Source of the DNA: Streptomyces sp. NBC_01445
Lineage (GTDB): Bacteria > Actinomycetota > Actinomycetes > Streptomycetales > Streptomycetaceae
Length of the DNA stretch: 64,000 nt
Reading direction: 5' to 3'
Assembly: GCF_035918235.1 (NCBI RefSeq)
Contig: NZ_CP109485.1
Location: 3,658,001-3,722,000, forward strand
Shown here: positions 3,324 to 64,000 of the stretch, piece by piece
How positions within the stretch are numbered: the stretch's first letter is position 1
Layout of the letters: every line of letters starts with the position of its first letter
The notes under the pieces: generated by a model
The model's database searches: none
Told to the model about the DNA's origin: nothing
The model's input: only the letters and a program-made list of their open reading frames with translations
Program-made: the position numbers and the translations under genes

Positions 3324-3338
3324 GTACGGTTTCTGCAG

Positions 3339-4175: not shown

Positions 4176-4193
4176 CCCGGCCGGCCCATCGGG

Positions 4194-4661
4194 CTACTCG
4201 TGGATGTCGTCCCGGGCGAGCTGCGCGGCTGCCTCGTGCATCGCCAGTTCCAGGACGGTCGGGTCGGTGAGGGTGCCCGAGCCGTCGGGCGGGATCAGCC
4301 AGCGGACTCCGCCGGCGGCACGGCCGGGAAGGGGATGCGGCACGACGATCCAGGTGCCACGGCCCGCGCCGCGCACCCCCGTGCCGAGCCAGCGGGTGGC
4401 CGTGCCGGAAGGTACGAAGAAGCCCATGCGGGCGTCACCGAAGTCGGCGAGCACGGGGCCCGGCCGGTCGATGACACGGGTGAGCACGTCGAGCGTCGGA
4501 TACCCCAGCTCGCCGGGCAGTATCAGTACGTCCCAGAGCCTGCCCGCGGGAAGGAGCGCGACCCCGAGGGGGTTGCGCTCCCATTCCCAGCGGCAGGCGT
4601 CCGGATCAGGTGCCACGGACGCCAGCCACTCGACCGCCGACTTCGCCCCCGAGCCAGTCAT
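4194..4661 (-). CDS. Conserved hypothetical protein, primase/polymerase-like annotation in Streptomyces
   Basis: The product has 155 residues and starts at an ATG with a very strong SD (GGAGGT at the right distance), which outranks an upstream in-frame ATG. It is rich in Trp, Gly and Pro (RLWDVLILPGELGYPT, GDARMGFFVPSGTATRW). Relatives in Streptomyces are usually labelled as related to the N-terminal half of bifunctional DNA primase/polymerases. No clear catalytic carboxylate triad is visible, so enzyme activity should not be assumed. It lies alone between the PAP2 gene and the polyamine operon. Acidic Asp/Glu residues cluster at the C-terminus. Confidence 0.7.
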   Translation of the reverse strand: MTGSGAKSAVEWLASVAPDPDACRWEWERNPLGVALLPAGRLWDVLILPGELGYPTLDVLTRVIDRPGPVLADFGDARMGFFVPSGTATRWLGTGVRGAGRGTWIVVPHPLPGRAAGGVRWLIPPDGSGTLTDPTVLELAMHEAAAQLARDDIHE

Positions 4662-4803
4662 GGCGGGACCTCCTCTTCCTGGTACGCAGTTGCCGAAAGC
4701 TGTGCGTGTCACCAGGGAGAGGAGGCCGGGCCGCGAGCATTACGCGGGTTCTGCCCACGAGTTGTTCCGGACTTGCCGATCCGGACCGGTGGTTCGGGAC
4801 TTG

Positions 4804-6231
4804 TCAGCTGTCGAAGCCGAGGCCCGCCTTGTCCATGGCCTTCAGCCACAGGTTGCGCCGGCCGCCGTTGTCGTCGGCGCGCGCCAGGGACCACTTGGTG
4901 AGCGCGATCCCGGTGTAGGCGAACGGCTCGGGCGGGAAGGGCAGCGGCTTCGTGCGGACCATCTCCAGCTCCGTACGCTCCGTTCGCTCACCGGAGAGCA
5001 GGTCGAGCATCACGTCCGCGCCGAAGCGGGTCGCGCCCACGCCGAGGCCGGTGTACCCGGCGGCGTACGCGACGCGGCCCTTGTGGGCCGTGCCGAAGAA
5101 CGCCGAGAAGCGTGAGCAGGTATCGATGGCGCCGCCCCACGCGTGGCTGAAGCGCACCCCCTCCAGCTGCGGGAAGCAGGCGAAGAACTGGCCGGCGAGC
5201 TTCGCGTACGTCTCGGGCCTGTGGTCGTACTCGGCGCGCACCCGGCCGCCGTAGGGATAGATCGCGTCGTAGCCGCCCCACAGGATCCGGTTGTCCGCGG
5301 AGAGCCGGAAGTAGTGGAACTGGTTGGCCGAGTCGCCGAGGCCCTGGCGGTTCTTCCAGCCGATGGAGGCCAGCTGGTCGTCGGTCAGGGGCTCGGTCAT
5401 CAGCGCGTAGTCGTAGACCGGGACGGTGTACGAGCGCACGCGCTTGACCAGGGACGGGAAGACGTTCGTGCCGAGCGCGACGTGCTGGGCGAAGACGCGC
5501 CCGTAGGGGGTGCGGACCGCGGTCCCGGCGCCGGACGAGGAGAGTTCGAGCGCCGGGGTGTGCTCGTAGAAGCGCACGCCGAGGTCGAGGCAGGCCTGCT
5601 TGAGGCCCCAGGCGAGCTTGGCGGGGTGCAGCATCGCGACACCGCGCCGGTCGTACAGGGCGCCGAGGAAGGTCGGCGAGTCGACCTGTTCGCGGGTCGC
5701 GTCGGCGTCGAGCAGCTCGGTGCCGTCCGCGAGGCCCGTCTCGGTCAACTCCTGGTGGAATTCCTGGAGTTCGGTGACCTGATGCGGCTCGGTGGCCACG
5801 TCCAGTTCGCCGGTGCGCTCGAAGTCGCAGTCGATGGAGTAGCGGGCGACCGCCTCCTCGATCGCGTCGAGGTTGCGGTTGCCGAGCTCCTCCAGCTTCG
5901 CGATCTCGCCGGGCCAGCGGGCCAGCCCGTTCGCGACGCCGTGTGTCAGGGAGGCGGCGCAGAATCCTCCGTTGCGGCCGGAAGCCGCCCAGCCCACCTC
6001 CTGCCCTTCGAGCAGGACCACGTCGCGCCCGGGGTCGCGCTCCTTGGCGAGGAGCGCGGTCCACAGGCCGCTGTAGCCGCCGCCGACGACGAGCAGGTCG
6101 CAGCGTTCGTCGCCGGTCAGCGCCGGCTGGGCCTGCGGCTTGCCGGGGTCGTCCAGCCAGTAGGACAGCGGCTTGGCGTCCGCCAGTGACTTGATCCAGT
6201 CGGTACCACGGTTCATGGCACGTGCGGCCAT
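4804..6231 (-). CDS. FAD-dependent amine oxidase, gamma-glutamyl-putrescine oxidase type
   Basis: This is a DAO-family flavoenzyme of 475 residues. The FAD-binding Rossmann motif is DLLVVGGGYSGLWTALLAKE, and it is followed by the GRNGGF segment typical of the PuuB/YgaF group. It probably oxidises a gamma-glutamylated di- or polyamine to the aldehyde, releasing H2O2 and an amine; the substrate is inferred from context. It is the last gene of a minus-strand operon with the polyamine-type ABC transporter and an aldehyde dehydrogenase, and starts 13 bp after the second permease. The ATG is preceded by GAGGGAG. The downstream gap (4662-4803) contains two TCCGGA palindromes (4766-4771, 4780-4785) that could form a weak terminator. 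Confidence 0.88.
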   Translation of the reverse strand: MAARAMNRGTDWIKSLADAKPLSYWLDDPGKPQAQPALTGDERCDLLVVGGGYSGLWTALLAKERDPGRDVVLLEGQEVGWAASGRNGGFCAASLTHGVANGLARWPGEIAKLEELGNRNLDAIEEAVARYSIDCDFERTGELDVATEPHQVTELQEFHQELTETGLADGTELLDADATREQVDSPTFLGALYDRRGVAMLHPAKLAWGLKQACLDLGVRFYEHTPALELSSSGAGTAVRTPYGRVFAQHVALGTNVFPSLVKRVRSYTVPVYDYALMTEPLTDDQLASIGWKNRQGLGDSANQFHYFRLSADNRILWGGYDAIYPYGGRVRAEYDHRPETYAKLAGQFFACFPQLEGVRFSHAWGGAIDTCSRFSAFFGTAHKGRVAYAAGYTGLGVGATRFGADVMLDLLSGERTERTELEMVRTKPLPFPPEPFAYTGIALTKWSLARADDNGGRRNLWLKAMDKAGLGFDS

Positions 6232-6244
6232 GATTTCAACTCCC

Positions 6245-7042
6245 TCAAACTGCCTTGTTCTTTCGCTTGCCGATCAGCATTGCGGCAAGGACCAGCAGCA
6301 CGGCGACGATGAACATCGCCGTACCGATGACATTGATCTGAACGGGCGTACCGCGCTGCGCCGATCCCCAGACGAACATGGGAAAGGTCACGGTCGAGCC
6401 CGCGTTGAAGTTGGTGATGATGAAGTCGTCGAAGGAGAGCGCGAAGGCGAGCAGCGCGCCCGCGGCGATGCCCGGCGCGGCGATCGGCAGGGTGACCCGT
6501 ACGAAGGTCTGGACGGGACCGGCGTAGAGGTCCTGGGCGGCCTGTTCGAGGCGCGGGTCCATCGACATGACGCGCGCCTTGACGGCCGTCACGACGAAGC
6601 TGAGGCAGAACATGATGTGGGCGATGAGGATCGTCCAGAAGCCGAGCTGCGCGCCCATGTTGAGGAAGAGCGTGAGCAGCGAGGCGGCCATGACGACCTC
6701 GGGCATCGCCATCGGCAGGAAGATCAGCGAGTTCACGGCGCCGCGGGCCCGGAAGCGGTAGCGCACCAGGGCGAAGGCGATCATCGTGCCGAGGACGGTG
6801 GCGCCGATCGTCGCCCACAGGGCGATCTGGAGGCTCAGGGACAGCGAGCCGCACATGTCGGCGACGCCGCACGGGTTCGTCCACGCGTCGAGGGAGAACT
6901 GCTGCCACTCGTAATTGAAGCGCCCCTTCGGCTTGTTGAAGGAGAACACCGTCACGATGACGTTGGGCAGGAGCAGATAGCCGAGGGTGACCAGACCCGC
7001 GATGACGACGAGATTGCGGCGCAGCCAGCGTACGAAGGGCAT
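6245..7042 (-). CDS. Polyamine-type ABC transporter permease (PotC-like)
   Basis: This binding-protein-dependent permease has 265 residues and about six membrane spans. The first span is near residues 10-35. The cytoplasmic EAA loop, which docks to the ATPase, is visible as EQAAQDLYAGPVQTFVRVTL followed by PIAAPGIAAG. Its partners are the permease encoded just upstream (1-nt overlap) and the ATPase before that. The order ATPase, PotB-like, PotC-like is the usual spermidine/putrescine arrangement. Substrate assignment rests on the neighbouring oxidase, aldehyde dehydrogenase and PotD-like protein. Confidence 0.9.
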   Translation of the reverse strand: MPFVRWLRRNLVVIAGLVTLGYLLLPNVIVTVFSFNKPKGRFNYEWQQFSLDAWTNPCGVADMCGSLSLSLQIALWATIGATVLGTMIAFALVRYRFRARGAVNSLIFLPMAMPEVVMAASLLTLFLNMGAQLGFWTILIAHIMFCLSFVVTAVKARVMSMDPRLEQAAQDLYAGPVQTFVRVTLPIAAPGIAAGALLAFALSFDDFIITNFNAGSTVTFPMFVWGSAQRGTPVQINVIGTAMFIVAVLLVLAAMLIGKRKNKAV

Positions 7043-7965
7043 CAGACCAAGTCCTCCGTTCCGGACCGGCGGATATAGACGGTGACCATGATCAGGATCG
7101 CGGCCATCAGGATGAAGGAGAGCGCCGCCGCCGTCGGGTAGTCCAGGATGCGCAGGAACTGCGTCTGGATGACGTTGCCGACCATGCGGGTGTCGGTGGA
7201 GCCGAGCAGGTCCGCGTTGACGTAGTCACCGGCGGCGGGGATGAAGGTGAGCAGCGTGCCGGAGACGACACCCGGCATGGAGAGCGGGAACGTCACCTTG
7301 CGGAAGGTGGTGGCGGGCGAGGCGTACAGGTCGCCCGCCGCCTCGTGCAGCCGGCCGTCGATGCGCTCCAGCGAGGTGTAGAGCGGCAGGATCATGAACG
7401 GCAGGAAGTTGTACGTGAGTCCGCAGATCACGGCGAGCGGGGTCGCGAGGACGCGGTCGCCGTCCGTCATGCCGATCCAGCTCGTGACGTCCAGGATGTG
7501 CAGGGCGTTCAGCGTGCTGACGACCGGGCCGCTGTCGGAAAGGATCGTCTTCCAGGCCAGCGTGCGGATCAGGAAGCTGGTGAAGAACGGCGCGATGACG
7601 AGGATGAGGACGACGTTGCGCCAGCGTCCCGCGCGGAAGGCGATGAGGTAGGCCAGCGGGTAGCCGAGCGCCAGGCACAGGATCGTGGCGGCGCCCGCGT
7701 AGAGCACCGAGCGCAGGAACTGCGGCCAGTAGTCGGCGAGCGCGTCCCAGTAGGTCGCGAAGTGCCAGGTGACCTTGAAGCCGTCCTCCAGGGAACCCGT
7801 CTGGATCGACGTGGACGCCTGGTAGACCATCGGCAGGGCGAAGAAGACGACCAGCCACAGCAAGCCGGGCAGCAGCAGCCAGTACGGGACGAGGCGGCCG
7901 CGCTTGCGCGGCGGGCGCGCGGTCTTGCCGGCCGGCGCCGCGGGAGTGTCGGTGACGGTCGTCAT
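7042..7965 (-). CDS. Polyamine-type ABC transporter permease (PotB-like)
   Basis: The protein has 307 residues. A basic cytoplasmic N-terminus (PRKRGRLVPYW) is followed by a first membrane span and about five more. The EAA motif is EAAGDLYASPATTFRKVTFP, near residue 225. It forms the heterodimeric channel with the downstream permease. The start codon overlaps the stop of the ATPase gene (ATGA, 7962-7965), and the stop overlaps the next permease start by one base, so translation of the three is probably coupled. Confidence 0.9.
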   Translation of the reverse strand: MTTVTDTPAAPAGKTARPPRKRGRLVPYWLLLPGLLWLVVFFALPMVYQASTSIQTGSLEDGFKVTWHFATYWDALADYWPQFLRSVLYAGAATILCLALGYPLAYLIAFRAGRWRNVVLILVIAPFFTSFLIRTLAWKTILSDSGPVVSTLNALHILDVTSWIGMTDGDRVLATPLAVICGLTYNFLPFMILPLYTSLERIDGRLHEAAGDLYASPATTFRKVTFPLSMPGVVSGTLLTFIPAAGDYVNADLLGSTDTRMVGNVIQTQFLRILDYPTAAALSFILMAAILIMVTVYIRRSGTEDLV

Positions 7966-9116
7966 GCGGCGGCGTCCTCCTCGACCTTCGCGGCGCCCGC
8001 CTCGATGTCCTGGGCGGCGTCGAGGCCGAACGTGTGCGCGGGGTTCCAGTGCAGGACGACCTCGGCGCCGGGGGTGAGCCGGGTGTCGCGTTCGATGTTC
8101 TGGGCGTAGACCTCGAAGGCGTCGCAGAGCGGGCTGTCGACGACGTACTGCGTGGAGACGCCGATGAAGCTGCTGTCGGCGACGCGGCCGGTGATGCGGT
8201 TGCGGCCGTCGGGTATGGAGCCCGCGTCATCGGCGTGGGTGAGGGAGATCTTCTCGGGGCGCACACCGACGAGGACCTTCCCGCCGGTGGTGGTGGCGGC
8301 CGTACAGCGGGCGGCGGGCAGGACGAGCTTGCCGTCGCCGGCCTTCAGGGTGAGGTCCTCGCCGCTGCGGCCGGCGACCTCGGCCTCGATGAAGTTGGAC
8401 GTGCCGAGGAAGTTGGCGACGAACGTGGACCCCGGGTTCTCGTACAGGTCCGCCGGAGCGCCCAGCTGTTCGACGCGGCCCGCGTTCATCACGGCGACCG
8501 TGTCGGCCATGGTCATGGCCTCCTCCTGGTCGTGCGTGACGTGGATGAACGTGATGCCCACCTCGGTCTGGATGCGCTTGAGTTCGAGCTGCATCTGGCG
8601 GCGCAGCTTGAGGTCGAGGGCGCCGAGCGGCTCGTCGAGGAGCAGCACCTTGGGGTGGTTGATCAGGGCGCGCGCCACGGCGACGCGCTGCTGCTGGCCG
8701 CCGGAGAGCTGGTGCGGCTTCTTGCGGGCCTGCTCGCCGAGCTGGACCAGGTCGAGCATCTCCCCGACCTGCTTCTTCACGGACTTGATGCCGCGGCGGC
8801 GCAGGCCGAAGGCGACGTTCTCGAAGATGTCGAGGTGCGGGAAGAGCGCGTACGACTGGAAGACGGTGTTCACCGGGCGCTTGTAGGGGGGCAGCGCGGT
8901 GACGTCCTGGTCGCCGAGCAGGACCGTGCCGGAGCTGGGCTCCTCGAGCCCGGCGATCATCCGCAGGGTCGTGGTCTTGCCGCAGCCCGAGGCGCCGAGG
9001 AGGGCGAAGAAGGAGCCCTGCGGCACGGTCAGGTCCAGCGGCTGGACGGCGGTGAAGGAGCCGTAGGTCTTGCTGATCCCGGCAAGGCGGACGTCGCCGC
9101 CGTTTTCTGTCGTCAT
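7962..9116 (-). CDS. Polyamine-type ABC transporter ATP-binding protein (PotA-like)
   Basis: This ATPase subunit has 384 residues. Visible motifs are Walker [10 protein letters not shown] (residues 41-49), a Q-loop ([13 protein letters not shown]), the intact signature [15 protein letters not shown], Walker [13 protein letters not shown] and the switch His (HVTHDQEEA). A ~130-residue C-terminal TOBE-type regulatory domain follows, as in the MalK/PotA group. The ATG at 9116 has no strong SD (TTGGAC about 8 bases upstream). It lies 47 bp after the binding-protein gene. The same frame stays open far upstream, but that is GC-driven and not part of this protein. Confidence 0.92.
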
Positions 9117-12856: not shown

Positions 12857-13852
12857 CTACAGGGCGGCGGAGTAGCCGCTGTCGTCGCTGCTGTCGCTGC
12901 CGCTCGACGAGTCGCTGGATGCGATGACGAAGAACATCATGACCAGCGCGAGCACCAGACCGCCGATGCCGCAGATCAGTCCGGCCAGGGCCTGGCCACG
13001 GTTGGTGGCCTCGCCCCGGCTCGCCTTCGCGCGGCCGATCGCGCCGAAGATGATGGCGAGGATGCCGACGATGATCGCGATCGGCCACAGGATGAAGGCG
13101 GCGGCCGAGATGATCCCGAGCGTCAGAGCGGCGACGCCCATGCCGTTGGCGGGTTGCGGCTGCATCCCGGGCCAGCCGTAGCCGGGAACGCCGTGGGCCA
13201 TCGAGGCCGGGCCGGTCGCCGCGTGCCGGCCGTAGCCGTAGTTGTAGCCGTACGGGGCGGCCGGGTAGCCGTACTGCATCTGCCCCGGCCCGTCGGGCGA
13301 GACGGGCGGCGGGGGCACGGGCTCACCGGGCGGCGCGAACGGGTTGGCCCCCGGTGCCCAGGGGGCCCCGGCCTGCGCCGCCGGATAGCCGGGGGGCATG
13401 CCGTAGGGGGCACCCGGCGGCTGGGCGTGCGGGTGCGGATGCGGGTGTTGCGCTTGGTGTGGCTGTTGAGGCTGTTGTGACCAGCGGCCGGGGGCCGTCG
13501 CGGCGCCCGGGGAGGGCGGGGCGAACGGGTTGTACGGCTCGCTGGGCGAGGCGGGTGCGGAGGGCGCGGCGAAGGGGTCCACCTGGGTTTCGGCGTGGGA
13601 CGGCGGCGCGAACGGGCGCACCGGCGCCGGAGCAACCGGCCCGGCCTCCCCCTGTGCCGCGTCCCGCGGCACGGCGTCCCGCGGGCCCGTCTCCGCCGGA
13701 GCCGCCCACGGGTCCGGTTCCCGCTTCCCCAGGGACACCCTGCCCCCAGGCTGATCCCCCGACCCCCGCTCCGGCGCAGCCGCCGAACCGTGGCCGCCCT
13801 CAATGCTCTCGGCGCTCTCGGCGCCCTCTCTGCCCTCTGTGTCCTCGGACAT
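12857..13852 (-). CDS. DUF4190-type proline-rich membrane protein
   Basis: The protein has 331 residues. The first ~220 are disordered and very rich in Pro, Ala, Gly and Gln, with Tyr-rich stretches (YPAAPYGYNYGYGRHA). Two hydrophobic spans follow (LTLGIISAAAFILWPIAIIV and LICGIGGLVLALVMMFFVIA) around a short basic loop containing GRAKASRGEATNRG, the hallmark of the DUF4190 family. It ends in a Ser/Asp-rich tail. Members are common actinobacterial membrane proteins of unknown role. The gene is convergent with the NADAR gene and divergent from the deaminase. Confidence 0.8.
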   Translation of the reverse strand: MSEDTEGREGAESAESIEGGHGSAAAPERGSGDQPGGRVSLGKREPDPWAAPAETGPRDAVPRDAAQGEAGPVAPAPVRPFAPPSHAETQVDPFAAPSAPASPSEPYNPFAPPSPGAATAPGRWSQQPQQPHQAQHPHPHPHAQPPGAPYGMPPGYPAAQAGAPWAPGANPFAPPGEPVPPPPVSPDGPGQMQYGYPAAPYGYNYGYGRHAATGPASMAHGVPGYGWPGMQPQPANGMGVAALTLGIISAAAFILWPIAIIVGILAIIFGAIGRAKASRGEATNRGQALAGLICGIGGLVLALVMMFFVIASSDSSSGSDSSDDSGYSAAL

Positions 13853-13989
13853 CGCTCGCTCGTCCCCCTTCTTCTCCCACCCGGACGTCCCGACATGCTA
13901 CGGCCGCCGCCAGGTCGCGGCCGTGGCACGCCTACGATGACTGCGACCCACCCGATCAGCCGATCATCCAAGTTCCTGGGGAGGAATCC

Positions 13990-15024
13990 GTGACCGATCT
14001 GCATGCCTTTATCGCCGGACTGCCAAAGGCAGAGCTGCATGTGCACCATGTCGGCTCGGCGTCCCCCCGGATCGTCTCCACGCTCGCGGCCCGCCACGCG
14101 GACTCCAAGGTCCCGACGGACCCCGAGGCGCTGGCCGACTACTTCACGTTCACGGACTTCGCGCACTTCATCGACGTATACCTCTCGGTCGTCGACCTCG
14201 TGCGCACGCCGGAGGACGTCCGCCTCCTCACGTTCGAGGTCGCGCGGGACATGGCCCGGCAGAACGTGCGTTACGCCGAGCTGACCATCACCCCGTACTC
14301 CTCCGTCCGCCGCGGCATCGACGAGTACGGCTTCATGGAGGCGATCGAGGACGCCCGCAAGGCGGCCGAGGCCGAGTTCGGCACCATCCTGCGCTGGTGC
14401 TTCGACATCCCCGGCGAGGCGGGGCTCGAGTCCGCCGCGGAGACCGTGCGGCTCGCGACCACCGACACGATCCGTCCGGAGGGCCTCGTCTCCTTCGGGC
14501 TCGGCGGGCCCGAAATCGGCGTGCCGCGGCCCCAGTTCAAGCCGTACTTCGACCGGGCGATCGCCGCGGGCCTGCACTCCGTGCCGCACGCCGGCGAGAC
14601 CACGGGCCCCGGAACGGTCTGGGACGCCCTGGTCCACCTCGGCGCCGAACGCATCGGGCACGGCACGACGTCCGTCCAGGACCCGAAGCTCCTCGCCCAC
14701 CTCGCCGAGCACCGCATCCCGCTCGAGGTCTGCCCGACGTCGAACATCGCGACGCGCGCCGTGAAGACCCTCGAGGATCACCCCATCAAGCAGTTCGTCG
14801 ACGCCGGGGTCGTCGTCACCGTCAACTCCGACGACCCGCCGATGTTCGGCACGGACCTCAACAACGAGTACGCCGTCGCCGCCCGCCTCCTCGACCTCGA
14901 CGAGCGGGGCGTGGCCGCGCTCGCCAGGAACGCGGTGGACGCGTCGTTCCTCGACGAGCCGGGTAAGGCCCGTATCGCCGCGGAGATCGACACGTACACG
15001 GACACGTGGCTCGCCGGGGCCTGA
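13990..15024 (+). CDS. Adenosine deaminase-family enzyme, probable 6-aminodeoxyfutalosine deaminase
   Basis: This metal-dependent deaminase has 344 residues. The metal ligands appear as LHVHHVGS (His17, His19), a His in SVPHAGE followed by the catalytic Glu region, and SDDPPMFGT with the Asp pair. The HHVGS motif differs from the HLDG of true adenosine deaminases. From memory, the S. coelicolor member of this subgroup deaminates 6-aminodeoxyfutalosine in the futalosine route to menaquinone. The GTG at 13990 has a GGGGAGGAA ribosome site. The downstream GDPD gene begins 21 bp after the stop. Confidence 0.85.
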   Translation: MTDLHAFIAGLPKAELHVHHVGSASPRIVSTLAARHADSKVPTDPEALADYFTFTDFAHFIDVYLSVVDLVRTPEDVRLLTFEVARDMARQNVRYAELTITPYSSVRRGIDEYGFMEAIEDARKAAEAEFGTILRWCFDIPGEAGLESAAETVRLATTDTIRPEGLVSFGLGGPEIGVPRPQFKPYFDRAIAAGLHSVPHAGETTGPGTVWDALVHLGAERIGHGTTSVQDPKLLAHLAEHRIPLEVCPTSNIATRAVKTLEDHPIKQFVDAGVVVTVNSDDPPMFGTDLNNEYAVAARLLDLDERGVAALARNAVDASFLDEPGKARIAAEIDTYTDTWLAGA

Positions 15025-15900: not shown

Positions 15901-17043
15901 ATGCCCGCACGCACCCGCCGTACCGTCCTTGCCTCCGCCCTCGTCCTCGGCCTCGCCGCGGGCCCGCTCGCCGTACCGGCCCTGGCGGACGCACCCGCCC
16001 GGGCGTCGGCCACGGCGGACCGCCCGGACGGAGCCGCGCTGCGCGAGGCGATCTCCGGGCTGCCGGACGCGGACGCCACTGCCGCGCTCGTGCGCGTCGG
16101 CGGCACGGACGGCGCGTGGCGCGGCAGCTCCGGCGTGCGTGACCTGGCCTCGGGCCGTGCCGCGCTCGACGGCGGCCGGTTCCGCGCGGGCTCGACGACG
16201 AAGGTCGTCACGGCGGCGGTCGTGCTCCAGCTCGCCGCCGAGCGCCGCGTGAATCTGGACGCGCCGGTGCAGCACTATCTGCCGGACCTCTTCAAGGGGA
16301 AGGGCTTCCGGCCCATATCCGTACGCCAGTTGCTGAACCACACCAGCGGCATCCAGGCCGGTGACGGCTTCGGCGACGACTTCGAGGACGCCTACGCGCA
16401 CCGCTTCGACACCCTCACCCCGCAGGCCGTCGTGGCGTCGGCACTCGCGAAGGGGCCGTCGTTCGACCCGGGCGGGCAACAGGAGTACCTCAACATCAAC
16501 TACACGGTTCTCGGCATGCTGATCGAGAAGGTCACGGGCCACACGTACGCGGACGAGGCCACCCGGCGCGTCCTGCGTCCCGCCGGGATGCGCGCCACGT
16601 CGTTCCCCGGCGCCGACCCCGTGATCCACGGCCCGCACAACCGCGGCTACCAGCTGGACGGCGGCCGGTTCGTCGACGTGACCGAGTGGAACCAGTCCGA
16701 CCGCTGGGCGGCCGGCGACATGATCTCCACGACGGCGGACCTGGAGCGGCTGCTGCGGGCGCTCTTCGGCGGCCGCCTCGTGCCCGGGCCCCAGCTCAAG
16801 GAGATGTTCACGGTGCCGTCGGACGTGCCGGGGGCGACCATGAGCGCGGGCCTCCAGCGCCTCGAGGCCGGCGGCTCGGTGTACTGGGGCAAGTCCGGAT
16901 CCCGCTACGGGTACGTGACCGGGGTCGCAGCGACCCGCGATCTGTCACGGACCGTGGTCTACTCCGTCGGCGCGACGGACGCCAAGGGCGACGCGATGAA
17001 CCCCGTCGCCGAGCGCATCATCATGGCGGCGGTCAAGGGCTGA
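15901..17043 (+). CDS. Secreted serine hydrolase, beta-lactamase/D-Ala-D-Ala carboxypeptidase fold
   Basis: The 380-residue protein begins with a Sec signal peptide (basic MPARTRR, hydrophobic core to about residue 28, Ala-rich cleavage region). The penicillin-binding motifs are GSTTK (catalytic Ser98, Lys101), YLN in EYLNINYTVLG (Tyr-Leu-Asn in place of the usual Tyr-Ser-Asn) and KSGSRYG. This is the class C beta-lactamase/DD-peptidase family, acting on cell-wall peptides or related esters outside the cell. The ATG at 15901 is preceded by GGAG at a good distance; the frame is open further upstream but lacks a start signal. Confidence 0.88.
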   Translation: MPARTRRTVLASALVLGLAAGPLAVPALADAPARASATADRPDGAALREAISGLPDADATAALVRVGGTDGAWRGSSGVRDLASGRAALDGGRFRAGSTTKVVTAAVVLQLAAERRVNLDAPVQHYLPDLFKGKGFRPISVRQLLNHTSGIQAGDGFGDDFEDAYAHRFDTLTPQAVVASALAKGPSFDPGGQQEYLNINYTVLGMLIEKVTGHTYADEATRRVLRPAGMRATSFPGADPVIHGPHNRGYQLDGGRFVDVTEWNQSDRWAAGDMISTTADLERLLRALFGGRLVPGPQLKEMFTVPSDVPGATMSAGLQRLEAGGSVYWGKSGSRYGYVTGVAATRDLSRTVVYSVGATDAKGDAMNPVAERIIMAAVKG

Positions 17044-56652: not shown

Positions 56653-58671
56653 TTACTGGTCCGTCGCCGTCTCCTGGCCGTCCGTGTCCTGGGTCCCCTG
56701 AATCCCCTGAGTCCCCTGCGCCTCCTCGTCCTTGGTGAGGCGGATGACGCCGGCGACGCGGTAGGCCTCCGCCTCGTCGAGGGTCTCGTTCGCGAGGAGC
56801 GCCGCGGCCAGGGCGTCCAACTGGCCGCGGTGGTCGCGGAGTTTGGTGCAGGCCTCCTCGTAGCACTCGTCGACGATGCGGCGCATCTCGTGGTCGATGG
56901 TGTCGAGGGTGTGCGGCGCGGCGGAGAGCCCGTACGCCTGCTGGGCGTCGCTCGGCAGGGCGGAGAGGCGGCCGATGCGGTCGCTCATGCCCCAGCGGGC
57001 GACCATGCCGCGCGCGATGTTCGTGACCTGTTCGAGGTCGTTCTCGGCGCCGGTGGTGACCACCCCGTATACGACGTGTTCGGCCGCCATGCCGCCGAGC
57101 GCGCCGATGATGCGGCCCCGCAGGTACTCCTCCGTGTAGGCGTACCTGTCGGCGTCGGGCGTGGAGAGGGTGACGCCGAGCGCGCGGCCGCGCGGCACGA
57201 TGGTGATCTTGCGGACGGGGTCGGCGCCGGGCTGGAGCATGCCGAGCAGGGCGTGGCCGCTCTCGTGGTAGGCGGTGCGGCGGCGCTCCTCGGCCGGCAT
57301 GACGAGGGGCCGTTCGGCGCCGAGCTGGACCTTTTCCAGCGCCTGGGAGAGGTCGGTCTGCGTGACGGCTTTCTGCTGGCGTTTGACGGCGAGGAGGGCA
57401 GCCTCGTTGGTGAGGTTGGCGAGGTCGGCGCCGGTCATGCCCGGGGTCGTGCGGGCGACCTGCAGCAGGTCCACGTCCGGGGCGAGCGGGATCTGCCGGG
57501 TGTGGATCTTGAGGATCGCCTCGCGGCCGCCGCGGTCGGGCGGGCTGACCGTCACGACGCGGTCGAAGCGGCCGGGGCGGGTGAGGGCCGGGTCGAGGAC
57601 GTCCGCGCGGTTGGTGGCCGCGATGACGATGACGCCCTCGGATCCCGAGAAGCCGTCCATCTCGGTGAGGATCTGATTGAGAGTCTGCTCGCGTTCGTCG
57701 TGGCCACCCATGGCGGAGCCGCCGCCGCGGGCCCGGCCGATGGTGTCGATCTCGTCGATGAAGATGATCGAGGGCGCCACCTTGCGGGCCTCGGCGAAGA
57801 GTTCGCGTACGCGCGAGGCGCCGACTCCGACGATCATCTCGATGAACTCGGAGGCGGACGCGGAGAAGAACGGGACACCGGCCTCGCCCGCGACGGCCCG
57901 GGCCAGGAGCGTCTTGCCGGTTCCCGGCGGGCCCGACAGGAGGACGCCGCGGGGCATCTTCGCGCCCATCTCGCGGTAGGCGTCAGGGTTCTTGAGGAAG
58001 TCGACGACGTCACTGAGCTCACCCTGGACCTCGTCGATGCCGGCGACGTCCGCGAACGTGGTGCGCTCCGTGCCGGGCTCGAGCTCGACCGGCTTGGGCG
58101 GCTGCTTGCGCCCGAGCATGCCTCCTGCCATGCCGCCGCCCATGCCCTGCCGCATCCGCCGCGAGATGAAGATCCACAGCGCGACGAGCAGGAACATCGG
58201 GGCGAGCGAGATGAGGAGGTTGGCGAGGAAGCTGCGCTCCTGGACGACCGGTGAGGCCGTCACGGTGACGTCGTGCTTCTCCAGATTCGCCCAGAGGTCG
58301 TCGTCCGCGAAGGACGGCCGCTGAGTCTTGAACTTGGTGTAGTTCTTGCTCGAGCTGTCACTGCCGCCGGGCGTGGGCTGCTCCTTCTTGAGCTGGCCCT
58401 GGATCGCGTCGCCCTTGGAGTAGATCTTGGTGACGTTGTTGTCGGCGACCTGCTTGCTGAACTCGGTGTACGAGATCGTCGGCTCGTCGCCCTTGTTGAA
58501 GAACGACAGCACGAGGTTGGCGATGACGTAGACGATCAGGGCAGTGAGAATGAGGCCGCCCCAGCCGCCCGGCATCTTCTTCCTGGGCGGCTTCGCGGGC
58601 TGTGGAGGCGGGGCCCCCTCGGAGCGCCACGGCTGGTCGGTGCGGTCGCGCGGGGGTACGGGGTTGGCCAC
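56653..58671 (-). CDS. FtsH-like AAA+ zinc metalloprotease (second-type paralog)
   Basis: The 672-residue membrane protease has two N-terminal spans (near residues 37-57 and 143-165) flanking a small extracytoplasmic domain. The AAA+ module has Walker [15 protein letters not shown], Walker [14 protein letters not shown] and the second region of homology (TRPGRFDR); the zinc site is [12 protein letters not shown]. The C-terminus has a Gly-Thr-Gln/Asp-rich tail. From memory, the main ftsH of Streptomyces lies elsewhere (near folE), so this is probably a paralog. The GTG at 58671 has AGGAGGAGA upstream; longer starts run into other genes. Confidence 0.92.
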
Positions 58672-58728
58672 GCCTGCTCTCCTCCTGCCGTCACGCCTCC
58701 CGCCCATGACCGCACACATCCGGGACCC

Positions 58729-58758
58729 TTGCCAGTATCCAGAATCCTGGTTACTGTC
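58729..58758 (+). promoter_or_regulatory. yhfZ promoter with CCAG-N4-CTGG box, leaderless
   Basis: TTGCCA (58729-58734) and TACTGT (58752-58757) are 17 bp apart. The -10 ends 7 bases before the GTG of yhfZ, so transcription should start at or next to the start codon. Between them lies CCAG-AATC-CTGG (58739-58750), part of a 23-bp box (58736-58758) repeated at 59754-59776. Confidence 0.6.
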
Positions 58759-58764
58759 CGATCT

Positions 58765-59703
58765 GTGAACGGTTTCGACGAGCGCTTCCTTACGCGCAAC
58801 GGCCTCGCGGCCCGCCAGCTCGCGGTCCTGCTGCTCAACCACGAGCCCGACACACGGCTGCCCCGGATCCGCGACTTCGCCGAGGAACTGGGATGCGGAA
58901 ACGGCACGGTCCAGGCCGCCCTGCGGCTCCTGGAGGAGTCCGGCGCCATCGAGACCGCCGCGCGCGGCCACCTCGGCACCTTCCTGGTCCGCTCCGAGCG
59001 CTCCATACTGTGGCGCCTCTCCGGCCTCGGCACCCTGCTGGCCGCGATGCCCCTCCCCTACTCGCGCCGCTACGAGGGCCTGGCCACCGGCCTGCGTGCG
59101 GCCTTCGAGGAGGCGGGCACCCCCTTCGCGATCACGTTCATGCGTGGCGCGGGCGCCCGGACCACCGCCCTGCTCGAAGGCAAGGTCGACCTCGTGATTC
59201 TCTCGCGGTTCGCCGCCGACCGGCTGATCGAGGAGCATCCGGTGGAGCTGGTCGCCGATCTGGGCCCGGCCACGTACGTCGGAGCGCACGGGCTGCTGCT
59301 GCGCGAGGGCGCCTCGCTCGACGCGCCCGGCCTGCGGGTCGCCGTGGACCACACCTCCGAGGACCAGCGGATGCTCGCCGAGCGCGCGTTCGCCAGGCGC
59401 ACCGATATCGAGTGGGTCGAGTCCTCGTACATGCAGCTGCGGGATCTGTTCGCGCAGAACCTGGCCGACGCGACCGTCTGGAATCTCGACGAGGTGCAGG
59501 GCCGGATAGGGATGGGCGGGGAGGTGTTGCCGCTGGGCGACGAGGTCACCCGCGATCTGTCCCTGCGCAACTCCAGCGCGGCGATCATCGGCAGGACCGA
59601 GGGCGCGAAGGCACTCTCCGCCGTACGGAACGCGGTCGACCTGTCGACCGTGACGTCACTGCAGGCCGAGGTGTTGCGGGGCGAGCGCGTGCCGTCGTAC
59701 TGA
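58765..59703 (+). CDS. yhfZ: YhfZ-family transcriptional regulator
   Basis: The 312-residue protein has an N-terminal winged helix of GntR type (TRLPRIRDFAEELGCGNGTV QAALRLLEESGAI) and a C-terminal domain resembling periplasmic-binding/LysR effector domains (AMPLPYSRRYEGLATGLRAA, ATYVGAHGLLLREGAS). It ends ERVPSY. These segments match E. coli YhfZ as I recall it closely. The GTG at 58765 has no SD but sits at the predicted transcription start. It is divergent from the FtsH-like gene and leads the yhf operon, which it probably controls. Confidence 0.85.
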   Translation: MNGFDERFLTRNGLAARQLAVLLLNHEPDTRLPRIRDFAEELGCGNGTVQAALRLLEESGAIETAARGHLGTFLVRSERSILWRLSGLGTLLAAMPLPYSRRYEGLATGLRAAFEEAGTPFAITFMRGAGARTTALLEGKVDLVILSRFAADRLIEEHPVELVADLGPATYVGAHGLLLREGASLDAPGLRVAVDHTSEDQRMLAERAFARRTDIEWVESSYMQLRDLFAQNLADATVWNLDEVQGRIGMGGEVLPLGDEVTRDLSLRNSSAAIIGRTEGAKALSAVRNAVDLSTVTSLQAEVLRGERVPSY

Positions 59704-59753
59704 ACCGGCGGGGGTGGCGCATAAGGGATTCGGCCACCCCCTCCCGACCTGAA

Positions 59754-59776
59754 TATCCAGAATCCTGATTATTGTC
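59754..59776 (+). promoter_or_regulatory. Second copy of the yhf box, before yhfY
   Basis: This 23-bp sequence differs from 58736-58758 at two positions. It contains CCAG-AATC-CTGA and a -10-like TATTGT (59770-59775). No good -35 lies upstream, so activation may be needed. The start codon of yhfY is 31 bp downstream. Confidence 0.6.
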
Positions 59777-59807
59777 GAATTGCCAATGGAGCCAGGAAGG
59801 AGACCCC

Positions 59808-60209
59808 ATGGACGACCAACTCGCCCTCCGCATCCAGCTGTTCCGCGAAGGCGGCCAGGTCAGGCCCGAGGTCGCCGACTTCGTGACCGCCGAGCTCACC
59901 GCCCTCGCGGAACGCGGGAACGAGGTCACCGAGCAGACCGCCGGCATGCTCACCAGCCACCTGATGATGGCGCTGACCCGGCTCGTCGACGGGGAGCCGA
60001 TCGAGCAGTTCCTCACCGACGAGCAGGTGGCCGCGGAACTGGCCGGCCACCCCCGGGCCGTGGCCGGCGCCCGCGAGGTCGCCGCCCGCGCCCGCGAACA
60101 GCTCGGCGCCACCCTGCCCGACTCCGAAGTCAACTTCCTGGCCATGCATCTTGCGGTGCTGGCGGGACATCCATCACCCGACTCCCAACCCCCAAGGACC
60201 ACTCCATGA
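59808..60209 (+). CDS. yhfY: YhfY-like PRD-domain protein
   Basis: The 133-residue protein is a single PTS-regulation domain. Conserved His residues lie in GMLTSHLMMALTRLVDGEPI and NFLAMHLAVLAGH. PRD domains are normally phosphorylated by PTS proteins and attached to antiterminators or activators; here it stands alone, as in the E. coli yhf operon. The ATG at 59808 has AAGGAG upstream. Its stop overlaps the yhfU start (ATGA). Confidence 0.8.
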   Translation: MDDQLALRIQLFREGGQVRPEVADFVTAELTALAERGNEVTEQTAGMLTSHLMMALTRLVDGEPIEQFLTDEQVAAELAGHPRAVAGAREVAARAREQLGATLPDSEVNFLAMHLAVLAGHPSPDSQPPRTTP

Positions 60210-60562
60210 CAAAGATCCTCACCGGCGGCGTAGGCAAGGTCGAGGTCGCCGGGACCGTCAAGGCGCTCGCCCTCGACGGCGTCGACATCGTCGTCTCCAG
60301 CGACATGGACGCCGCGATGAAGCTCCGCGTGGGCCAGGCCGACTTCTACCTCGGCACCTGTCACACCGGCGCCGGCGCCTCGCTCGGCGTCCTCGTCGGG
60401 CTCATGGGACAGCCCGCCTGCCACACCTTCGGGCGTTCCGTACCGACCGAGGACGAGGTCGACTCCCTGCTCGACCAGGGCAAGAAGGTCTTCGGCTTCT
60501 CCATGGACCAGATCGACGTCATCGCTCCGCTGATCGCCCGCGCCATCGCCGCGCGCGCCTGA
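60206..60562 (+). CDS. yhfU: YhfU-like DUF2620 protein
   Basis: The 118-residue protein has the DUF2620 core (MDAAMKLRVGQADFYLGTCH TGAGASLGVLVGLMG), close in length and sequence to E. coli YhfU. The Gly-Thr-Cys-His region could be a ligand or metal site; the function is unknown. The conserved pairing with yhfT suggests a soluble partner of the membrane protein, comparable to a PTS EIIB subunit in size, but without known chemistry. Confidence 0.85.
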   Translation: MTKILTGGVGKVEVAGTVKALALDGVDIVVSSDMDAAMKLRVGQADFYLGTCHTGAGASLGVLVGLMGQPACHTFGRSVPTEDEVDSLLDQGKKVFGFSMDQIDVIAPLIARAIAARA

Positions 60563-60602
60563 CCACACCAGGCACCTCCGCCCCGGGCACGAAGGAGATC
60601 CC

Positions 60603-61952
60603 GTGAGCCCCGTGAACACCACACTCGCCGCCGGCGCGAACCTCGACTTCTCTCTGGCGCAGCAGTTGACCGTGATCGCGCTCTGCGCGCTGACCGCGTT
60701 CATCTCGCACATGGCACTGGCCGTCTTCAACGACGGTGTACGCCCGTTCATGCTGGACTTCATCCAGGGCCGGTCGACCCGCAGCGCCACCACCGCGGTC
60801 TCCTTCGGGCTCTCCGCCGGGTTCATCTTCGGGCTCGGCGCGCCGATGGCCCTGTCCACCGGGGTGCTCAACCCGTGGCTGCTGTTCCTGCCCACGGACA
60901 TCCTCGGGCTGCTCGCGCCGAAGAAGTGGATCGCGCCGATCCTGGGCGGCGCTTGGGGCGCCGTCGTCGTGTTCGGTCTGAACGGCGCGAACAACGTGGC
61001 CCACGACCTGCCGGTCGACTTCCTGACGGCGATGCAGCAGATGTCGACGCCGATCCTGTTCCTGTTCACGCTGTTCCCGGTGCTGGCGATCACCAAGCAG
61101 TTCGGGCGCAAGTGGGGCGGCGTCGCGGGCGTCCTCGAACTGGCCCTGGTCGTGATGACCATGAAGATCTGGCCGAACATGTTCGCGGGCGCGCTCGCCA
61201 TGGCAGTCGGTGTCCTGATGCTCATCGGCCTCGCCATCGCCAAGGACGTCCGGGCGCGCAAGGCCGAGCGGGCCGAGGGCGGCGGCGTCGAGGAAGTGGT
61301 CCTCGCGGACGACCCGATGGCGTCGCTGTTCAGCTCCAGCGCGGCGAGACTGCGCAAGTTCCTGCCGCTGTTCATGGTGCTCGGCGCGGGTGTCTGCGTG
61401 CTCGCACAGATGCACATATTCGGCGGTGGTGAGGCCACCAGCTTCCTGATCGCGAAGGGGCACTACAGCGAGGCCGCCCAGGTGGACTTCTACCGGGTGT
61501 TCGGCTTCATCCCGCTGATCGCGACGACCGCGCTCGCCTCGGGGGCGTACGGCATCGCGGGTTTCACGCTCGTCTACCCCATCGGCTATCTGCTGCCGAA
61601 CCCGTTCCTCGCGGCCATCGTCGGCGCGGCCGTCTTCGCCGTCGAGGTGCTCGCCCTCTCCTACATCGGCAAGTTCCTCGGCAAGCTGCCGAGCGTGCGC
61701 GACTCGTCGGAGCACCTGCGCAGCGCCATCACCGACACGCTCCAGCTGGCGATCCTCTTCGGTTCCCTGATGGCCGCCAACGCCATGGGCGCCGGTCTCG
61801 GCATCCTCGTCGTCGGCGGGCTCTATCTGCTGAACGAGGCGATGGGCCGGCCGGTCGTACGGATGGCGGCCGCTCCCGCCGCGGTGATCGTCGGCGGCAT
61901 CCTGCTCAACCTCCTGTACTGGCTCGACCTGTTCACCCCGATCAAGAGCTGA
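60603..61952 (+). CDS. yhfT: YhfT-like polytopic membrane protein
   Basis: The 449-residue protein has about ten to twelve hydrophobic spans and family blocks such as VFNDGVRPFMLDFIQGRSTR and WIAPILGGAWGAVVVFGLNG. E. coli YhfT is of similar size and has no known substrate; a transporter is likely. The GTG at 60603 has AAGGAG. With yhfU it may form an uptake system for the compound handled by PHP and YhfS. Confidence 0.85.
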   Translation: MSPVNTTLAAGANLDFSLAQQLTVIALCALTAFISHMALAVFNDGVRPFMLDFIQGRSTRSATTAVSFGLSAGFIFGLGAPMALSTGVLNPWLLFLPTDILGLLAPKKWIAPILGGAWGAVVVFGLNGANNVAHDLPVDFLTAMQQMSTPILFLFTLFPVLAITKQFGRKWGGVAGVLELALVVMTMKIWPNMFAGALAMAVGVLMLIGLAIAKDVRARKAERAEGGGVEEVVLADDPMASLFSSSAARLRKFLPLFMVLGAGVCVLAQMHIFGGGEATSFLIAKGHYSEAAQVDFYRVFGFIPLIATTALASGAYGIAGFTLVYPIGYLLPNPFLAAIVGAAVFAVEVLALSYIGKFLGKLPSVRDSSEHLRSAITDTLQLAILFGSLMAANAMGAGLGILVVGGLYLLNEAMGRPVVRMAAAPAAVIVGGILLNLLYWLDLFTPIKS

Positions 61953-61990
61953 GGCCGGGTACGTACGCCAGGAAGGAAACCCCCCACACC

Positions 61991-62941
61991 ATGCACACCC
62001 CGCCCCTCATCCACACCGTCACCGACCCGCTCCCCGCGGCCGCCGTACGTGGCCCGGCCCTGGCCCACGAGCATCTGGTGCTCGACCTCGACCGGCGCGG
62101 CGACGGCAGCGCGGTCCTCGACGCCGAGGCACACGGGCCGGCCGTCACGGCCGAACTGGCCGCCCTGCGCGAGGAGTTCGGCCTCGCCCTGGTGATCGAG
62201 CTGACCTGCCGCGGCATGGGGCGCGACCCGCGCGCCCTGGCCCGGATCTCCCGGGACGCGCAGGTCGCCGTCGTCGCGGCCACCGGCTGGTACTACGAGC
62301 CGTTCCACACGCCCGAGCTGGCCGGCGCGGAGGTCGGGCATCTGGCCGACACGCTGGTCCGCGAGATCGACGGCGGTCTCGGCGCAAGCGGCATCCGGCC
62401 GGGCGTGCTCGGCGAGGTCGGCAGCCACGGTGACGTGCCCAGCGAGCCGGAGTCGCGTGCGCTGCGGGCGGCGGCGCGGGCCGCCGTCGCCACCGGCCTG
62501 TCGGTCGCCACGCACGCGCAGCTCGGCCGCGGCGGGCTCGCCCAGCTGGAGCTGCTCACCGGCGAGGGCCTCGCCCCGCACCGGATCTCGGTCGGCCACC
62601 AGGACCTCCTCGACGATCCGGCCGTGCACAAGGAGCTGGCCGCGAGCGGCGCGTACGTCGCGTTCGACACGGTCGGCAAGGAGAGCTACCAGAGCGACGA
62701 CATCCGGCTGCGGCTGCTGCTCGCCCTCCTGGAGGCCGGCTACGCCGACCGTGTCCTGCTCAGCTGCGACATCTCGCGCCACGGCTATCTGGAGCGCGAG
62801 GGCGGTCAGGGTTACGGGCATCTGTTCCGGTCGTTCCTGCCCCGCGCCCGTGCCGCGGGCGTGGACGACGGCCTGATGGACCTGATGACGCGCCGCAATC
62901 CGCTGCGCTTCCTGACCGGCGCGAGCGTGGAGGAGATCTGA
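61991..62941 (+). CDS. php: Phosphotriesterase homology protein (YhfV/PHP)
   Basis: This 316-residue amidohydrolase-superfamily protein has the metal ligands His26 and His28 (LAHEHLVLD), Glu142 (GVLGEVGSHGD), His175 (ATHAQLGRGG), His203 (VGHQDL) and Asp260 (LLSCDISRHG). Glu142 takes the place of the carbamylated Lys of true phosphotriesterases; the same replacement and ligand spacing are known for E. coli PHP. That makes lactone, ester or amide hydrolysis more likely than phosphotriester cleavage. The next gene starts 2 bp after its stop. Confidence 0.9.
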   Translation: MHTPPLIHTVTDPLPAAAVRGPALAHEHLVLDLDRRGDGSAVLDAEAHGPAVTAELAALREEFGLALVIELTCRGMGRDPRALARISRDAQVAVVAATGWYYEPFHTPELAGAEVGHLADTLVREIDGGLGASGIRPGVLGEVGSHGDVPSEPESRALRAAARAAVATGLSVATHAQLGRGGLAQLELLTGEGLAPHRISVGHQDLLDDPAVHKELAASGAYVAFDTVGKESYQSDDIRLRLLLALLEAGYADRVLLSCDISRHGYLEREGGQGYGHLFRSFLPRARAAGVDDGLMDLMTRRNPLRFLTGASVEEI

Positions 62942-62943
62942 CG

Positions 62944-64000
62944 ATGACGCCCACACACTCGGCCGCACCCGCGCTCCCCGAGACCTTTCCGCTCGCCACG
63001 ATCCCGGTCGACGAGGCGATGGCCCGGCAGTTCCGGCTGATCGAGTGCACCGCCGCGCACTTCGCCGGCGAGGAGCTGTTCAGCGCCGACGCGGGCGTCG
63101 TGCCGGGGCTCGGCCGGCCCCGCACGACCGCCAAGGCCGAGGCGGTGCTCGCCGGCTTCTTCGGGGCCGAGGACGCCGCGTTCGTCCAGGGCGCGGGCAC
63201 CGGAGCGATCCGTGCCGCGCTGAACGCCGCGGTGAGCGCGGGTGACCCGCTGCTGATCCACCGGGCGCCGGTGTACCGGACCACCGAGGTCACGCTGCGC
63301 GGCATCGGCGTACGCACCGAAGAGGTCGACTTCAACGACCTGGGCGCGCTGCGCGAGGCCCTCGCGTCGGGGCGCTTCCGGTGGGCGTACGTCCAGCACA
63401 CCCGGCAGCGGCTCGGCGACTCGTACGACCCGGGCGAGGTGCTCGCCGCCTGCCGGGCGGCCGGAGTGCGCACCATCGTCGACGACAACTACGCCGTGCT
63501 GCGTGTGCCCGCGTCGGGCGTCGAACTCGGCGCGGACGCCTCCTGTTTCTCGCTGTTCAAACTGCACGGGCCCGAGGGCGTGGGCATCGTCGTCGGGGCG
63601 CGTGACCTTGTCGAGCGGGTCCGCGCGGACAACTACTCGGGCGGCGGTCAGGTCCAGGGTCATCAGGCGCTGGACGTGCTGCGCGCCCTGACGCACGTGC
63701 CGGTGATGTGGGCGGTGCAGTCGCGGGTGGGCGCCCAGGTCGCGGAGCGGCTCGCCGCCGGTGAGGTGCCCGGGGTCGCCGAGGTGCGGCTCGCGAACGC
63801 GCAGGACCGGTGCCTGCTGGTACGCCTGGACCGGCCCGTGGCGCGCCAACTCCCCGCTGTCGCCGCCCGGTTCGGCGCCGCGCCCTATCCCGTCGGCTCC
63901 AACTCCCGTTATGAGATCGCGCCGCTCTTCTACCGCATGTCCAGCTCGTCCCTCGACGACTCCCCCGGACTCGCGGACTGGACGGTGCGGATCAATCCGA
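62944..64000 (+). CDS. yhfS: YhfS-like PLP-dependent enzyme (partial, 3' end outside window)
   Basis: Visible are 352 residues of a fold-type I PLP enzyme. The probable Schiff-base Lys206 is in SCFSLFKLHGPEGVGIVVG and the Asp pairing with the pyridine N in VDDNYAVLRV. The N-terminal FVQGAGTGAIRAAL block fits the phosphate-binding region. It belongs to the YhfS family in E. coli, related to cystathionine or selenocysteine-synthase-like folds; its reaction is unknown. It directly follows php. The homologues of yhfX and yhfW would be expected beyond the edge. Confidence 0.82.
   Translation, partial: MTPTHSAAPALPETFPLATIPVDEAMARQFRLIECTAAHFAGEELFSADAGVVPGLGRPRTTAKAEAVLAGFFGAEDAAFVQGAGTGAIRAALNAAVSAGDPLLIHRAPVYRTTEVTLRGIGVRTEEVDFNDLGALREALASGRFRWAYVQHTRQRLGDSYDPGEVLAACRAAGVRTIVDDNYAVLRVPASGVELGADASCFSLFKLHGPEGVGIVVGARDLVERVRADNYSGGGQVQGHQALDVLRALTHVPVMWAVQSRVGAQVAERLAAGEVPGVAEVRLANAQDRCLLVRLDRPVARQLPAVAARFGAAPYPVGSNSRYEIAPLFYRMSSSSLDDSPGLADWTVRINP

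Follow-up and report, generated by a model that had tools for sequence, protein, structure and literature searches.

Streptomyces sp. NBC_01445 carries a complete and conserved yhf operon at the end of the 64,000-nucleotide stretch analysed here (contig NZ_CP109485.1, positions 3,658,001 to 3,722,000; hereafter the window). The operon is more complete than the initial annotation of this DNA had noted: all eight yhf families of Escherichia coli are present and co-directional when the genome DNA just past position 64000 is included. It adds another instance of a gene set that is known yet unexplained, and is best explained as a unit for the catabolism or salvage of a single small organic compound. 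We favour, with a rough probability of 0.48, uptake of that compound by YhfY, YhfU and YhfT in a manner linked to the phosphotransferase system (PTS), perhaps as a non-canonical PTS, which would feed the enzymes PHP, YhfX, YhfS and, optionally, YhfW. The PTS link is drawn from two gene neighbourhoods and from the conservation of a cysteine in YhfU and a histidine in YhfY. A literature search of open-access papers found no reported function for the yhf operon, that of E. coli included, in agreement with the earlier remark that it has no settled substrate; a PTS link for yhf was not seen there.

The yhf operon of the window

The last 5.2 kb of the window consist of yhfZ, yhfY, yhfU, yhfT, php and the start of yhfS on the plus strand; two further genes follow in the adjoining genome DNA.

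58765..59703, plus strand: yhfZ, GntR-like regulator with a GTG start; NF041241 345 bits (cut-off 260), PF14503, PF14502
59808..60209, plus strand: yhfY, stand-alone PRD domain protein; PF00874 28 bits (cut-off 23)
60206..60562, plus strand: yhfU, DUF2620 protein; PF10941 138.7 bits over the full 118 residues; Cys52 in a GxCx[TS]GxG loop
60603..61952, plus strand: yhfT, integral membrane protein family; PF10797 513 bits
61991..62941, plus strand: php, phosphotriesterase-family hydrolase; PF02126 188 bits
62944..64146 (the window ends at 64000), plus strand: yhfS, fold-type I pyridoxal phosphate (PLP) enzyme family; PF22475 145.5 bits for the full gene, 124.8 bits for the part within the window
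64149-65312, past the window: yhfX; PF21279 and PF01168
about 65309-66547, past the window: yhfW; PF01676; NF009049 450.7 bits (cut-off 254)

The initial annotation had named the first six genes as one plus-strand run, and each of their proteins indeed matches its own family in profile searches. YhfY is assigned by its PRD domain and its position, since it gave no BLASTP match to E. coli YhfY at E 1e-3. The genes yhfX and yhfW, which were to be looked for past 64000, are both there. The tight spacing described earlier holds for the ATGA overlap of yhfY and yhfU and for the 2-bp gap between php and yhfS, and does not extend to the other gaps (104 bp between yhfZ and yhfY, 40 bp between yhfU and yhfT, 38 bp between yhfT and php).

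As had been stated, E. coli has the same set: strain MG1655 of E. coli K-12 carries all eight families on one strand (yhfS-yhfZ, b3376-b3383), beside frlABCDR. Gene order differs, being Z Y U T php S X W in Streptomyces and Z Y X W php U T S in E. coli. BLASTP identities to the E. coli proteins are 35% for YhfZ, 31% for YhfU, 40% for YhfT, 36% for PHP, 48% for YhfS and 39% for both YhfX and YhfW. Regulator, membrane protein, hydrolase and PLP enzymes are thus kept together in an actinobacterium as one unit, in line with the first description.

Gene neighbourhoods shared with the phosphotransferase system

Genes of the PTS lie in or beside two of 87 yhf loci. The first, L138, is a divergent Chloroflexota cluster without yhfZ and php, in which yhfY (5821-5369), HPr (5325-5050) and Enzyme I (5043-3334) follow one another on the minus strand with gaps of 43 and 6 bp; the cluster (3334-7452) also contains yhfU, yhfS, yhfT, yhfW and yhfX in two pieces. 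Its HPr is the sole HPr match of that genome, and a second Enzyme I is encoded elsewhere. The other locus, L085 of Streptomyces niphimycinicus, has an HPr gene (15945-16223; PF00381, 87 bits) on the strand of yhfW, starting 94 bp beyond it and near the contig end. Both neighbourhoods strengthen the hint of PTS input that the PRD domain had given at the outset. The open reading frame that begins immediately after the L085 HPr looked Enzyme I-like by eye at its start; the frame does not stay so, and a 35-residue piece matched no family, so no Enzyme I is claimed there.

The remaining 85 loci, the window's own included, contained neither HPr nor Enzyme I when their locus DNA only was scanned by tblastn (E 1e-4) with the HPr of L138 and two Enzyme I proteins. 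A new Chloroflexota cluster with all eight genes (L159) carries no HPr or Enzyme I on its 19 kb. At the level of whole genomes, HPr was found in all 16 yhf genomes searched, and Enzyme I above cut-off in eight of nine. Enzyme I also occurs in all seven genomes with YhfT above cut-off in a sample of 201 Chloroflexota genomes, versus 78 of the 194 others, where the others include three weak YhfT matches and six of the seven look closely related.

Conserved residues and predicted folds of YhfY, YhfU and YhfT

All 75 loci in which yhfY was called keep the first PRD histidine of the protein; E. coli, Vibrio and Cetobacterium have another residue in place of the second. The YhfU cysteine is present in all 229 relatives among the matches listed (the best 120 of 350 and of 1082), 228 of which keep the full GxCx[TS]GxG loop. 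An AlphaFold2 model of YhfU (predicted local distance difference test score 94) has an RpiB/LacAB-like fold, RpiB ranking first and Enzyme IIB (EIIB) lower. The structure model of YhfT is poor in quality. Profile-profile alignment with hhalign was not significant for either protein. Compared with E. coli Enzyme IIC (EIIC) proteins and controls, YhfT gave SgcC first (P 0.076 and 0.071, against 0.095 for the control YtfF and 0.088 for FecC), and for YhfU the lead was taken by SgcB (0.017) and RpiB (0.019), against 0.041 for the control YtfH.

Two observations weigh against a PTS-linked uptake system. Among the Pfam matches shown for 70 YhfU and seven YhfT sequences (25 of 27 families in the case of YhfU), none places either protein in a PTS family. 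The second is that the window's own genome, the ninth of those searched, appeared to be without Enzyme I; this was traced to a stretch that reads N, beside a match, obtained with the protein of a relative, that covers Enzyme I residues 171-553 at 99% identity.

In the mechanism that we favour, HPr would pass phosphate to the PRD histidine of YhfY and YhfY would hand it to the invariant cysteine of YhfU, while YhfT would carry the compound over the membrane during its phosphorylation. The three proteins would thereby take the roles of Enzyme IIA (EIIA), EIIB and EIIC. More tentatively, and as something that may well turn out otherwise, they could form a previously unrecognised class of PTS permease, with a stand-alone PRD as EIIA, an RpiB-fold phosphocysteine-loop protein as EIIB and YhfT as EIIC. 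In E. coli, in Streptomyces and in two or more further phyla, this permease would supply a PLP-enzyme pathway whose substrate resembles an amino-sugar acid.

The alternative that survives best, possible although we do not think it likely, makes YhfT an ordinary secondary transporter. YhfU would then be a small RpiB/LacAB-like enzyme or ligand-binding protein that acts, with the phosphopentomutase-like YhfW, on an imported (phospho)sugar-like compound, and YhfY would only relay PTS status to the regulation of the operon. The predicted fold of YhfU is of this kind. However, RpiB uses His and Arg to bind and open its phosphosugar, and among 70 YhfU sequences neither residue is invariant at any position; the YhfU matches to the RpiB/LacAB family are far from membership, staying below the Pfam cut-off with a best E of 0.012. 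Furthermore, YhfW gave no match genome-wide in the five YhfW-less Streptomyces searched, all of which keep YhfU, so that YhfU and YhfW are not a fixed pair. An ordinary carrier also leaves the HPr and Enzyme I genes inside L138, and the HPr gene beside L085, unexplained.

PRDs are best known as regulatory domains, and YhfY adjoins the regulator gene yhfZ in the Streptomyces, E. coli, Vibrio and Cetobacterium clusters. YhfU and YhfY might accordingly be read as a PTS-fed sensor that controls the activity of YhfT or YhfZ, the substrate itself receiving no phosphate. We regard this as improbable: YhfY carries no Pfam domain other than its PRD, and YhfU keeps its place beside YhfT in E. coli, Cetobacterium, Vibrio and Streptomyces (where Y, U and T are consecutive), though not in L138.

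The enzymes and the probable class of substrate

Our alignments show that PHP, YhfS and YhfW keep their catalytic motifs from one phylum to another. Ten aligned PHP proteins keep the HxH, Glu, His, His and Asp positions, which we take to be the metal ligands. The closest solved relatives of PHP are PDB entries 4lef and 1bf6, and it is weakly similar to phospho-furanose lactonases (45 bits, cut-off 630). The closest entries for YhfS and YhfX, 4j8l and 4kbx, were deposited under those very names; the Lys motif of YhfS and the KQ.GRNP motif of YhfX are kept, their lysines presumably being the PLP lysines. YhfW remains below the equivalog cut-off for DeoB (TIGR01696, 116.9 versus 341.2 bits). Downstream of uptake, PHP would open a lactone-like or ester bond, YhfX would epimerise an amino-bearing carbon, YhfS would perform an elimination, and the optional YhfW might move or remove phosphate.

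The proposal of one pathway is upheld in so far as the genes stay together. The linear scheme first suggested, from YhfT and YhfU through PHP to YhfS, fares less well: it omits YhfX, which 81 of 84 loci contain (L041, L044 and L049, where it was missed, are short and end nearby), and includes YhfS and PHP, which are missing from the Vibrio halioticoli and L138 clusters, respectively.

A YhfX homologue at 38-41% identity also occurs in units on alphaproteobacterial plasmids, which comprise a ROK regulator, an M20 hydrolase, one or two periplasmic binding proteins, a sugar-type ATP-binding cassette (ABC) permease, the YhfX-like enzyme and an ABC ATPase. This description comes from all six annotated loci opened (L143-L146, L148 and L149) of 19 plasmid records matched, with domains checked for one and two of the six being nearly the same Aminobacter unit. 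In contrast to yhf, uptake here is by an ABC transporter, and no yhfS, yhfT, yhfU or php is found among the annotated neighbours, whose gene tables are incomplete. The position beside an M20 hydrolase indicates that YhfX belongs to pathways in which a hydrolase may act first and release a product that bears an amino group. In Cetobacterium somerae, where the order is Z Y U T amidase php S X W, an amidase-family gene lies between yhfT and php (L141:13294-14325; PF01425 21.3 bits, below the cut-off of 27). Together with the lactonase-type family of PHP, these contexts point to a compound that is derived from a hydroxylated amino acid or amino-sugar acid and can be hydrolysed; such an acid, or its lactone, would fit best as the substrate class.

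Operator-like sites and the regulator YhfZ

A 22-bp site, TATCCAGAATCCTGRTTAYTGT, occurs twice, beginning at 58736 and again at 59754.

58736..58757, plus strand: operator-like site 1, TATCCAGAATCCTGGTTACTGT, starting 29 bp before yhfZ
59754..59775, plus strand: operator-like site 2, before yhfY

At up to six mismatches, the first site lies 28-29 bp before yhfZ in all 66 Streptomyces loci scored, and the second precedes yhfY in 62 of 70 (eight of the 74 Streptomyces loci are without a scorable yhfZ open reading frame and four without yhfY). Because the 22-base consensus was drawn from the scored loci, these counts are not an independent test of discovery; the background count is one, with a single match in 2,776,894 positions at the same threshold. 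Five loci with yhfZ (L056, L072, L085, L089 and L106) are missing the second site at this threshold. Conversely, the yhfZ reading frame has been lost in four loci whose contig continues (L091, L101, L103 and L113), three of which are without the yhfY site; L091 retains it with three mismatches, so the co-loss of operator and regulator is only partial.

Outside Streptomyces, six Chloroflexota loci were scanned, and in five of them TATCCAGNATNCTGGATA stands directly before yhfZ and nowhere else in the locus. Related palindromes occupy that position in the sixth (L159) and in Boudabousia. No TATCCAG-type site was seen before E. coli yhfZ, where there is a weak palindrome only. YhfZ is probably the operon's own regulator, acting at both 22-bp sites. 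The sites would fit autoregulation by YhfZ and a second, separate promoter for yhfY onward.

Distribution and cluster make-up

A scan of GTDB contigs gave 87 relatives, of which 79 distinct loci were kept: 74 from Streptomyces, one each from Boudabousia and Ktedonosporobacter, and three from Thermogemmatispora. Gene order across these loci is nearly constant, and the Streptomyces arrangement is also that of Boudabousia (L111) and of Chloroflexota L159. The genes, whose co-occurrence in other genomes had been in question, are hence conserved as a unit in Streptomyces, Boudabousia, Chloroflexota, Cetobacterium and Vibrio clusters. The Vibrio halioticoli plasmid has the order Z Y php U T X W; upstream of its yhf genes (L142:5435-7997) are genes that by eye look like sugar-PTS EIIC and EIIA, and a DUF7916 protein. 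The Thermogemmatispora and Ktedonosporobacter loci are without yhfW, with only distant relatives elsewhere in the genomes (31-33% identity, long matches). In Lactobacillus rhamnosus, one paper (PMC7513527) gives a PRD protein, a DUF2620 protein and a membrane protein consecutive accessions, with a YhfX accession neighbouring.

YhfT (PF10797) scored above cut-off in nine of 400 Chloroflexota genomes, mostly already known ones, and in one of the seven genomes of the class to which L138 belongs. Near the L138 cluster are genes for a class III aminotransferase (704-2161), an SDR-like protein (7603-8337) and a SIS-domain protein (13630-14664). In Streptomyces varsoviensis (L070) a second yhfT-like stretch, 54% identical, begins at 7699 between yhfZ and yhfY, the normal yhfT being at 10001.

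Within Streptomyces the distribution is patchy, with YhfT above cut-off in 26 of 199 genomes; across the phylum it was found in two of 396 genomes, both of the same genus, that is, in one of 236 genera sampled. This patchiness, and the loss of yhfZ in four loci, would suit a decaying foreign remnant without function, a notion that is hardly credible for Streptomyces given full-length genes with conserved catalytic motifs, an operator-like site in every locus scored and YhfT identities of 74-99% between loci.

In the window's genome ffh is convergent and lies beyond yhfW, and an FtsH-type gene (56653-59352, minus strand) is divergent from yhfZ; its reading frame as listed overlaps yhfZ at the start and is probably called too long. 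A near-identical locus is that of Streptomyces sp. CB01635 (L038). Among 62 Streptomyces loci whose sequence extends far enough, 36 have ffh downstream of the operon at a distance of up to 5 kb and the rest do not, which suggests an old site combined with either later moves or independent gains. Neighbouring genes gave no clue to the substrate: in 35 Streptomyces loci without ffh or ftsH matches only generic ones recur, in six to eight loci each, namely a SpoIIE phosphatase, a PucR regulator, DUF4291, MASE1 and an ornithine/diaminopimelate/arginine decarboxylase-type protein, each identified from one representative.

Comparison with known systems

The ula operon for L-ascorbate offers a functional parallel, with three uptake components (the PTS proteins UlaABC), a hydrolase (the phospholactonase UlaG) and epimerase-type enzymes in neighbouring genes. 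It differs in that UlaA, UlaB and UlaC are annotated as EIIC, EIIB and EIIA, whereas YhfT and YhfU are in no PTS family and YhfY is a PRD protein; the yhf enzymes use PLP, and UlaG, we believe, belongs to another hydrolase family than PHP. As PTS family membership fails by sequence, yhf may be said to work like ula, not to be a system of that kind.

Another cluster of interest is the EF_0829-EF_0839 type, which, judging from TIGRFAM names, presumably combines a stand-alone PRD, a Gly-rich SFCGS protein, membrane proteins and a PLP enzyme. YhfY weakly matches its TIGR03582 (E 0.022), and the L138 YhfU matches the SFCGS family PF14272 with 22.4 bits (E 1.3e-4), below the cut-off of 27.3; three of 70 other YhfU members gave weak matches (best E 0.0098). 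SFCGS relatives were found in none of 119 genomes of Boudabousia's order, and a plasmid collection gave five yhfU relatives. The membrane proteins and enzymes of the EF_0829-EF_0839 cluster are, to our understanding, of other families than those of yhf.

Implications

The yhf genes form an unexplained metabolic cluster of E. coli K-12, even though structures are available for close relatives of three of the proteins. A link to the PTS turns this operon into a direct question, namely whether phosphoenolpyruvate, via Enzyme I and HPr, phosphorylates YhfY and YhfU. The operator-like sites provide a second handle, as the inducer could be found through YhfZ binding. Should such phosphorylation occur, the PRD, a domain known for regulation, would also serve as a phosphocarrier, and roles could be assigned to YhfU (DUF2620) and YhfT (PF10797).

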